DNA from: Phocaeicola oris
GTDB taxonomy: Bacteria; Bacteroidota; Bacteroidia; Bacteroidales; Bacteroidaceae
Assembly: GCF_021295095.1 (NCBI RefSeq)
Contig: NZ_JAJLQX010000007.1
Location: 54,077-118,076 of the forward strand
Direction: 5' to 3'
DNA length: 64,000 nt
In this document: positions 6,702 to 64,000 of the stretch, piece by piece
Layout of the letters: each line of letters opens with the position of its first letter
Numbering within the stretch: the stretch's first letter is position 1
Program-made: the position numbers and the translations under genes
Notes under the pieces: generated by a model
What the model was told of the DNA's origin: nothing
Seen by the model: only the letters and a program-made list of their open reading frames with translations
The model's database searches: none

Positions 6702-6861
6702 ATTAATTCGATGCTTTACAACATATATATAAAAAAATAAACAAATGCATTTCTTAATACAGATAACAGAAAGGCTAAATCAAACCTAATCATTATATTA
6801 AAAAGACGTTATAGCAAGTCCAAAAAGGCATTTTCATTTTGTCGTTAGGCTAATTATATCA

Positions 6862-7125
6862 GTCATCAAGAAACTTTGAAAAGTGAACCATTTAAATTAT
6901 CTAACTCATACGGATGAATTACTCAACTTATACGGATAAGTCATTTGTTTCACAGATGTGAGACACTTGTTTCACTCCTGTGAGACACTTGTTTCACTTA
7001 TGTGAAACGAAAAACTCTCCTGATAAACATGGCAACTTATATGGTTCACTTTCATACTCATACGCATCGAAGCAATAACTGCTGTATATACGAACGATTC
7101 CTCCAAACCGTTTATCCATCTAAAA
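6862..7125 (-). repeat. Palindromic intergenic repeat, copy 1 (3 units, reverse)
   Basis: The core 6947-7008 holds three 18-bp units starting at 6947, 6969 and 6991, exactly 22 bp apart. The form is GTTTCAC-N4-GTGARAC; the third is a perfect palindrome around TTAT. The right flank (reverse complement GTGAACCATATAAGTTGCC) matches copy 2 at 24689-24704, and AGATGGATAAACGGTTT at the far right matches copy 3. The left flank GAAACTTTGAAAAGTGAACC matches the far side of copy 2. Nothing else is seen in 6702-6861 or 7126-7180. Confidence 0.85.
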
Positions 7126-7180
7126 AAGAGCAATGATACACAATGCGTATATGGTAATTCCCCGAACTTACGTTAACAGT

Positions 7181-24609: not shown

Positions 24610-24926
24610 CTGCTTCTTTTAAGATGATACATGTTTTTTGTCAACCAACCATAACAACTATTATGCTGATGCGTATGAGCTGAAAAGTGAACCATATAAG
24701 TTGCCGTATTCATCAGAAGATTTTTTCGTTTCACTCCTGTGAGACAATTGTTTCACATCTGTGAGACATTTGTTTCACTCCTGTGAGACATTTGTTTCAC
24801 TCTTGTGAGACAAATGAACCGTCCGTATGAGTTGAGCAGTTTATACGGTTCACTTTTCGAAGTCTCTTGAAGACAAGTTTTAATGAATCGGATGAAAATG
24901 CTAAAAACATCGTTTGAACATACTGT
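24610..24926 (+). repeat. Palindromic intergenic repeat, copy 2 (4 units, forward)
   Basis: The core 24728-24811 holds four GTTTCAC-N4-GTGAGAC units at 24728, 24750, 24772 and 24794, exactly 22 bp apart. The left flank CCGTATTCATCAGAAG is shared with copy 3 and, inverted, copy 4. The outer right flank ACATCGTTTGAACATACTGT matches copy 4 inverted (59293-59312), and GGTTCACTTTTCGAAGT matches copy 1 inverted. The rest of 24524-25211 shows only the promoter at 25063. Confidence 0.87.
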
Positions 24927-35437: not shown

Positions 35438-35521
35438 TTGCTTCAGCTCAGGATAAGACTCATTATCTATAATAATTAACGCAAATTCGTCGAATTCAAA
35501 ATAACACAAGCCGGGATTCAC
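35423..35521 (-). pseudogene. Possible gene remnant convergent with thrC
   Basis: Minus-strand open frame of 32 codons (GTG start possible) containing CYFEFDEFALIIIDNESYPE and ending in TAG inside the last thrC codons. It looks protein-like but has no recognised family, and upstream it runs into the flank of repeat copy 3. It may be a relic or chance. Confidence 0.25.
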
Positions 35522-35526
35522 TACTT

Positions 35527-35745
35527 CTTTTTAGATGGATACACGGTTTTTAAGGGAAACCAATCATAATCAACTCCTACTTTGATATATATAAGTGAAT
35601 GAAGCGATACACACGAGTTTCCGTATTCATCAGAAGTCTTTTTCGTTTCACTTATGTGAGACACTCGTTTCACTTATGTGAGACGTTTGTTTCACTTATG
35701 TGAGACGAATGAATCATACGTATGAGTTTTGCAATTTATCCACAT
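35527..35745 (+). repeat. Palindromic intergenic repeat, copy 3 (3 units, forward)
   Basis: The core 35645-35706 has units at 35645, 35667 and 35689, all GTTTCACTTATGTGAGAC, at an exact 22-bp period. The left flank TTAGATGGATACACGGTTT matches copy 1 inverted, and CCGTATTCATCAGAAG matches copy 2. After the core comes ATACGTATGAGTT as in copies 2 and 4. From 35746 to 35854 nothing is seen. Confidence 0.86.
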
Positions 35746-59292: not shown

Positions 59293-59580
59293 ACAGTATG
59301 TTTAAACGATGTTTTCGTGTTCTCTCTCGGCAGACTCATTGATTTTGTCATAAAGAAACTTAAGAAAATGATACGTATGAATCAATCAACTCACACGCAT
59401 AATTTAGTTGTTTCACATCTGTGAAACAAGTGAATCACATCTGTGAAACAAATGAATCACATCTGTGAAACAAATGAATCACATCTGTGAAACGAGTGAA
59501 TCACATCTGTGAAACGAAAAATTCTTCTGATGAATACGGAAAATCAATCGTATCTCTTTCTATATTCATATATATGAAGT
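59293..59580 (-). repeat. Palindromic intergenic repeat, copy 4 (5 units, reverse)
   Basis: The core 59410-59515 has five units at 59410, 59432, 59454, 59476 and 59498, again exactly 22 bp apart. The first is GTTTCACATCTGTGAAAC; the others have GAATCAC as left arm and are almost identical to each other, which suggests recent tandem duplication. The right flank (inverse of CCGTATTCATCAGAAG) and left flank ACAGTATGTTTAAACGATGT match copy 2 inverted. The remaining 59581-59736 shows nothing. Confidence 0.88.
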
Positions 59581-62078: not shown

Positions 62079-62472
62079 GGGCTTGTTTGGTTTTGACAGC
62101 GAGTTGAGGTGGTATGTAAGCATGCAGAGCGTTGTTAATATGGCTCTATAATCTCAATTATCAAAATTTATCTGGCAACGAAAATTATGCTCTCGCTGCG
62201 TGATTGAAGTATAGTAAATCACCTTTATTTCTGGCATAGTGTTAGAAACGGGATGTCGCTCAAAAGCCCTTGTTCCGAGGCGTTTGATATAGTGGCACAG
62301 CAAAATCGGGAATAGTCAGGGATTCGCCTTGCGTCTTTGATGAAATTTAGAGGATAAGGCATGAGTGGGTGGCTTTGGTCTTGCTTGTGCACGAAAATCG
62401 AAGGCAAAGATAAGCATGTAGAAAGCATATGGTCTCCTTGTTTGGACGAGGGTTCGACTCCCTCCAGGTCCA
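62079..62472 (+). ncRNA. ssrA: tmRNA (transfer-messenger RNA)
   Basis: About 394 nt. The 5' arm GGGCTTG pairs with the 3' arm CAGGTCC to make the tRNA-like acceptor, with the T arm GGTTCGACTCCC near the end and the start GGTTTTGACAGC typical of tmRNA. The tag frame at 62174-62203 encodes GNENYALAA and a stop. CCA is only partly encoded. It rescues stalled ribosomes by trans-translation with SmpB. The gene pncB starts 25 bp later without a clear terminator between them. Confidence 0.96.
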
Positions 62473-62497
62473 CAGATTTTAATCTCTATATAACATC

Positions 62498-63918: not shown

Positions 63919-63921
63919 AGA

Positions 63922-64000
<79 letters not shown>

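Follow-up and report, generated by a model that had tools for sequence, protein, structure and literature searches.

The stretch of DNA analysed here, referred to as the window (64,000 nucleotides of a Phocaeicola oris contig), carries four intergenic arrays of three, four, three and five units of a palindrome, GTTTCAC-N4-GTGARAC, repeated at a strict 22-bp period (Table 1). Pattern counts and Tandem Repeats Finder, which recovered the identical four arrays at period 22, agree with each other and with the sequence-only reading in which these arrays had been described. On both strands together, 30 matches to the unit with at most two mismatches were found in the window, where 0.77 were expected and where 100 shuffles gave a maximum of five. 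The arrays lie outside genes, as had been claimed, having zero overlap with any ORF of at least 90 aa in the window, and the gaps that hold them are same-strand for copies 1 and 4, divergent for copy 2 and convergent for copy 3. The unit formula needs a correction for copy 4, where only the first unit reads GTTTCAC-N4-GTGAAAC and the other four read GAATCAC-N4-GTGAAAC, two mismatches away from the formula. Copy 1 had been placed at 6862-7125; the repeat is present there, but the element is larger, running from about 6750 to about 7174. No outer ends of copy 2 were recognised beyond the array and its conserved inner arms, and the X end of copy 3 matches an IS982-type end at C48:89554-89636 (72% over 83 bases). 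CRISPR had been set aside on account of the spacing, and rightly so, since CRISPR spacers are unique and at least about 20 bp long and the spacers here are only 4 bp. Only tmRNA and 5S reached the Rfam gathering score in the window, the former at 62079-62475 and a partial 5S rRNA at 63919-64000.

Table 1. Positions of the repeat copies in the window, and of the ISAs1-type insertions next to arrays in genome G258
Feature	Position or locus	Strand	Remarks
Copy 1, entire MITE	6750..7174	-	Approximate; read against other copies
Copy 1, ends	~7174 (X); ~6750 (Y)		X arm with degenerate terminal repeat; Y terminus eroded
Copy 1, array of three 22-bp units	6947..7008	+	Pattern count, Tandem Repeats Finder
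Copy 2, array of four 22-bp units	24728..24811	+	Pattern count, Tandem Repeats Finder
Copy 2, array with conserved inner arms	24682..24858	+	GAAAAGTGAACC left, GGTTCACTTTTC right
Copy 3, array of three 22-bp units	35645..35706	+	Pattern count, Tandem Repeats Finder
Copy 3, X-end terminal inverted repeat	35478..35494	+	AACGCAAATTCGTCGAA; matches IS982-type end
Copy 4, array of five 22-bp units	59410..59515	-	Pattern count, Tandem Repeats Finder
ISAs1-family IS or its MITE beside arrays	L210, L213, L214, L215, L217, L219, L220		G258

The repeat and its carrier element in P. oris

The proposal of a dispersed family is borne out by the whole genome (2.98 Mb, 50 contigs), in which the exact unit occurs 67 times in forward and 54 times in reverse orientation, with none for a backwards control, and in which a 202-bp query taken from copy 2 gave 71 BLAST matches. 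The set examined comprises 45 copies, 41 from among about the first 100 of these 121 places and the four of the window, and the genome holds more. Arrays in P. oris were found through single exact units, so that even one-unit arrays are detectable, and those of other species through two neighbouring core-perfect units. The number of units per array in P. oris ranges from one to eight, with four units in 15 of the 45 copies listed; these are counts of exact half-unit matches, which were preferred, as at a threshold of six of eight core bases the counts include some flanking CATNCGNATG palindromes. Relative to its flanks, the array is oriented one way in 24 of 42 copies, the opposite way in 12 and symmetrically in six, when orientation is set by the block TATTCATCAGAAGA at a score of at least 10/14, three further copies being devoid of the block. 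Within P. oris arrays N4 is identical at 0.34 against 0.05 expected, and the sets CASEAJ and E01 lean likewise; such sameness looks like the outcome of tandem duplication, and units have been both gained and lost in this species, probably by that route. By eye, an additional palindrome, CATACGTATG with its variants, can be seen at the next 22-bp step outside the P. oris arrays. A second palindrome, AACTCATGCGGATGAGTT, also in tandem and also with a 22-bp period, lies beside a single GTTTCAC unit from L039:2016 onward.

In P. oris the repeat is a MITE of roughly 420 bp (range about 350-450 bp) with the array at its centre and no gene inside. Twelve similar copies were compared by BLAST, and four young ones, which are 89-97% identical to each other, begin and end together at the terminal repeat. 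Seven copies (L025, L028, L035, L042, L048, L049 and L051) align mutually over about 164-182 bp to the left and about 169-202 bp to the right of the array, and five others (L020, L022, L023, L041 and L046) give shorter alignments on one or both sides; L020 and L042 also have 670 bp of flank in common. The limits of the young copies are inverted repeats, AACGTGAGTTCGACGAATTC on the left and AACGTGAATTCGATGAA, reversed, on the right. Terminal inverted repeats, AACGTGAGTTCGACGAATTCAAAATAA / AACGTGAATTCGATGAAATAA, are present at both ends of the young copies L025, L035, L042 and L051, all four of which are bordered, as read by eye, by 5-bp target duplications (AAGAT, ATCTT, AAATT and ATTTT), that of L051 (ATTTT) going with one changed terminal base. 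In many older copies, including most of the ends in the window, the terminal repeats are eroded. A non-autonomous mobile element, one of the possibilities raised in the sequence-only reading, is supported in P. oris by inverted termini, 5-bp duplications and ends apparently shared with an IS982-type IS.

The 17-bp end AACGTGARTTCGAYGAA was found, at up to two mismatches, 35 times in forward and 33 times in reverse orientation in the P. oris genome, the control giving 0 and 1. Twelve of these 68 matches sit 104-109 bp from a contig end, which suggests that the assembly broke inside a multicopy element. The sequences that continue past the MITE end at such places are of two kinds. One of them leads, as judged by eye, into the beginning of a transposase resembling MITENKVTEIFCMADDFCKFFD of L020, of which related copies exist; a homologue of 308 aa in L085 reaches 220 bits with the NCBIfam IS982 model NF033520 (cut-off 130), and the L020 fragment only 28.9 bits, below that cut-off. 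In the other, the first 27 bases are identical to the left arm of the MITE, and the reverse complement is, by eye, like the end of a transposase. Taken together, these continuations suggest that the two ends of the MITE match both ends of an IS982-type IS, and such a multicopy IS would probably move the MITE in trans; no full IS982 copy bearing the MITE ends is assembled in the 50 contigs. Two loci, L020 and L083, are mosaics of IS982-type ends and pieces of another transposase (LLDREKITQISRETPGSEAYVKRF), probably arising from nested insertions.

The nearest described system found is BrickBuilt of Porphyromonas gingivalis, a Bacteroidales MITE of which Klein et al. (2015, PMC4596501) reported 19 copies for a single strain. 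According to that account, it resembles the P. oris MITE in being always intergenic, in having internal tandem repeats and in holding no transposase, and its repeats are framed by a leader and a tail, with small inverted ends (PMC4596501). It differs, as described there, in its unit of 23 nt instead of a 22-bp palindromic unit, the comparison being one of unit length, in its 1 to 22.8 repeats where arrays outside P. oris mostly have four, and in its ends, which resemble the IS5-family ISPg1/ISPg9 (e.g. GAGACCTTTGCA in Table 2 of the paper) instead of AACGTGARTTCGAYGAA of IS982 type (PMC4596501). Matches to BrickBuilt were reported from P. gingivalis alone, apart from related hits in P. gulae (PMC4596501).

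The array module in other Bacteroidales

Copies are not restricted to P. oris, as the array module occurs in several families of Bacteroidales, and the host genus, which had been named as Bacteroides, should read the genus of P. vulgatus. When species representatives were scanned for exact pairs of adjacent units, at least 83 stretches matched, and 80 loci are listed. The core TCAC-N4-GTGA with its 22-bp period was found in unrelated flanks in records titled Phocaeicola, Bacteroides, Parabacteroides, Prevotella and Tannerellaceae; flanks differ between species, the period and the core are common to them, and arms such as TTATCAC, TCTTCAC and TTTTCAC replace the GTTTCAC of P. oris. Bacteroidales titles are borne by 79 of the 80 listed loci, the remaining one being titled Methanosarcinaceae. 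On that contig an array of TTTTCACTCGTGTGATCTCACT units lies at L137:7551-7674, and it may be an archaeal copy or a case of misbinning.

With the palindromic 16-base tandem-pair pattern TCACN4GTGAN10TCACN4GTGA, the genomes with matches numbered 3 of 393 for the order, 35 of 399 for the family and 2 of 247 for the phylum, the two last being the P. oris genome and one genome of its family, while the reversed control pattern gave two, one and no genomes, respectively. Ten of 33 genomes of the same genus match, with counts of 125, 26, 22, 21, 17, 17, 2, 1, 1 and 1, the highest being that of the P. oris genome itself. The distribution across genomes is therefore patchy. P. vulgatus ATCC 8482 has 11 arrays, B. 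ilei seven and G258 fifteen. In viral contigs, a pattern two and a half units long matches two stretches. On an IMG/VR contig (L174:977-1032) the units lie shortly upstream of an ORF that weakly resembles VapE (23 bits, cut-off 25), and this copy may be phage-borne.

Outside P. oris, four units were counted in 105 of 115 arrays among the loci listed, under a rule of at least six of eight core bases (66/76 listed species-representative loci, 11/11 in P. vulgatus, 7/7 in B. ilei, 14/14 in G258 and 7/7 in G636). This count covers the 80 listed loci minus four that touch a locus end and the 15 of G258 minus one, so that five arrays at locus ends are left out of the total, and L116, L150 and L154, which belong to the B. 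ilei and P. vulgatus sets as well, are counted twice. The rule depends on the threshold, the totals being 98/115 at the lax setting of 5/8 (where only 3/7 arrays of G636 have four units) and 92/116 at the strict setting of 7/8, as well as on the selection of arrays by two neighbouring core-perfect units.

In G258, an ISAs1-family IS (323 bits against NF033564, cut-off 70) and its MITE of about 158 bp, with ends CAGGGCTGACGCATTA, are present in ten complete copies, seven of which adjoin an array, six of them beyond its last unit at a distance of about 20-23 bp and the seventh within a unit; the remaining three have no listed array next to them. Target duplications were seen by eye, of 10 bp in L214, L217, L219 and L220 and of 9 bp in L210, and none was visible by eye in L213 and L215. 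The gap sequence between the ISAs1 element and the array is not conserved, so that the IS itself seems to target the arrays. As a carrier of the array the ISAs1 element was rejected, because the gap of about 20 bp is unconserved (by eye) and most insertions have duplications of their own. An end of the CAGGGCTGACGCATTA type also touches the array in L163.

Constraint on the core was assessed on one species pair. Of the seven arrays fetched from the sister genome G636, four correspond to one of the 11 loci of P. vulgatus, and only these four orthologous arrays entered the test. They differ at 0/128 core positions, 4/96 in the outer arms, 18/64 in N4 and 5/48 in the spacers, compared with 48/696 in intergenic flank, 195/1404 at fourfold sites and 686/7762 at codon positions 1 and 2, the last value (8.8%) indicating that the coding control contains some misaligned sequence. 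In these arrays the core changes more slowly than both fourfold sites (p=2e-8) and flank (p=3e-4), and N4 changes faster than fourfold-degenerate sites (28% vs 14%, p=0.003), a rate unexplained by a site that merely ignores its centre. A second family of five copies in P. vulgatus and G636, among which two pairs are probably orthologues and hence non-independent, repeats this contrast of N4, with pairwise differences of 0.49 in N4, 0.03 in spacers, 0.08 in arms, 0.11 in the core and 0.14-0.25 in flanks; its core does vary (34/320 pairwise differences, 7/32 columns). One of these copies, L226 of G636, has only about 140 bp in common with the other four, reaching at most from -31 to +25 about the array, and the smallest mobile unit may be of that length. 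Its P. vulgatus counterpart aligns in the left flank to within 5 bp of the element and has no array in the next 220 bp; as the right flank is not conserved, an empty site is only suggestive here. Loop inversion was considered as a source of change in N4 and rejected, one exact case being found (ATAG/CTAT, L025 vs L035), and reverse-complement N4 within arrays is clearly above expectation only in P. vulgatus (0.12 vs 0.04).

As regards the surroundings, no recurrent neighbour gene family was found, the largest cluster comprising 3 of the 206 proteins next to arrays. Of 125 arrays counted earlier under different ORF settings, 51 lay in same-strand gaps, 36 in convergent ones, 16 in divergent ones and 21 at a locus edge, and one (L160) lies inside an ORF. 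Among the 16 loci searched with Rfam, the gathering score is attained by a tRNA that lies in L200 at about 600 bp from the array.

Possible roles of the array

The explanation we hold to be probable is that of an IS982-type MITE in P. oris carrying a Bacteroidales module which would be the cooperative site of a dyad-binding protein. Its palindromic TCAC-N4-GTGA sites, placed two helix turns (22 bp) apart, all lie on one face of the helix, and outside P. oris mostly four of them, usually flanked by inverted outermost half-sites, form one array. Most likely a homodimeric DNA-binding protein would bind cooperatively here, reading the TCAC/GTGA half-sites and not the central N4; arms and N4 differ between species, as if site and protein changed together, and MITEs would carry the module about. 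A protein-binding array had already been among the suggestions made for this repeat, and it is favoured by the constrained core and the mostly fixed number of units, although no binding protein was found. Perhaps one may go further, tentatively and with more doubt than belief, and propose a "quartet" chromosomal site, in which four phased palindromes make up one nucleoprotein complex, with intergenic copies numbering from several to some tens in each genome, with fixed half-sites and an N4 diversifying more quickly than neutral sequence (as if cut, recombined or selected to differ), and that the specificity of this site would shift by species together with a partner protein.

A folded nucleic acid, whether tandem RNA hairpins acting as terminator or mRNA stabiliser or DNA cruciforms, could also account for palindromes in tandem, and we regard such a structural element as unlikely. 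The six arrays tried, folded as single DNA strands, all fold better than their shuffles (z -3.8 to -10.5), yet palindromic repeats fold well as single strands in any case. Convergent gaps are enriched over divergent ones (37:29 for arrays vs 26:51 for other gaps of the same listed loci, p=0.011), in a comparison where divergent gaps outnumber convergent ones two to one in the control, so that the simple ORF caller may be biased. When 64 of the 80 listed loci were grouped by species, the outermost arms of the array paired with each other above background in 12/15 sets (such as TCTTCAC..GTGAAGA of G258 or TTATCAC..GTGATAA of B. ilei), the exceptions being P. distasonis NM39, RUG12482 and RUG14221; moreover, in the orthologues L199/L227 both outermost bases changed together, from G..C to A..T, whereas in L197/L224 just one of the two changed. 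Against this, pairing within the unit, measured at its three outer arm positions, exceeds background in only 3/15 sets and is far below it in G258 (0.21 vs 0.46), by which a DNA-binding dyad fits better than RNA hairpins, and an RNA hairpin per unit is not favoured. All Rfam hits that overlap arrays in the 16 loci (miRNA and other models) are far below the gathering score and are taken as hairpin-shaped chance. A general complementarity of outer stems is not claimed, since scores of own against cross pairs show an excess in P. vulgatus only (24.5/18.2, as against 18.6/18.5 in B. ilei and 16.1/20.4 in G258). That the arrays are nothing but neutral minisatellites inside selfish MITEs, as in BrickBuilt, is in our view distinctly improbable. 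Such a reading agrees with the terminal repeats and target duplications of the young copies, as well as with the one to eight units and the homogenised N4 of P. oris arrays, but it predicts a unit number that varies everywhere, in contrast to the mostly four units seen elsewhere in unrelated flanks and to the unchanged core of four orthologous arrays.

GTTTCAC/GTGAAAC equals the half-site of the parS consensus, a widely conserved sequence, and a centromere-like split parS, recognised by ParB or by some relative of the Noc kind, would explain this identity, which holds in P. oris and also, at their outer ends, in several arrays of P. vulgatus; one contiguous GTTTCACGTGAAAC is also present in the P. 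oris genome. We give this reading very little credence, as a split of 4 bp would rotate the half-sites, and as the arms are species-specific, being TTATCAC, TCTTCAC or TTTTCAC in other species. The contiguous GTTNCACGTGAAAC is absent from the arrays, which differ from parS in their tandem arrangement too. The sole exact GTTNCACGTGAAAC match in the P. oris genome, a parS-like sequence, is found in L061 (G000:C3:85911-85924). As for the earlier comparison with REP/BIME elements, which are associated with a RAYT transposase and are insertion targets for ISs, it is apt in some respects and not in others. The arrays share with them short dispersed palindromes in many, mostly intergenic copies, but REP/BIME palindromes, as described by Di Nocera et al. 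(2013, PMC3733652), are tagged at one end with GTAG or CGTC, and the units here have no constant tag (by eye) and a strict 22-bp period.

Searches of the open-access literature found no description of the unit, the four-unit rule or the MITE. A cooperative site for a dyad-binding protein, if this is what the module is, points to a DNA-binding protein of a major gut lineage that would recognise mostly four phased sites with a constrained core and a hypervariable centre, recurring in unrelated flanks across gut Bacteroidales. The module is present in P. vulgatus ATCC 8482, and this can therefore be tested at once.
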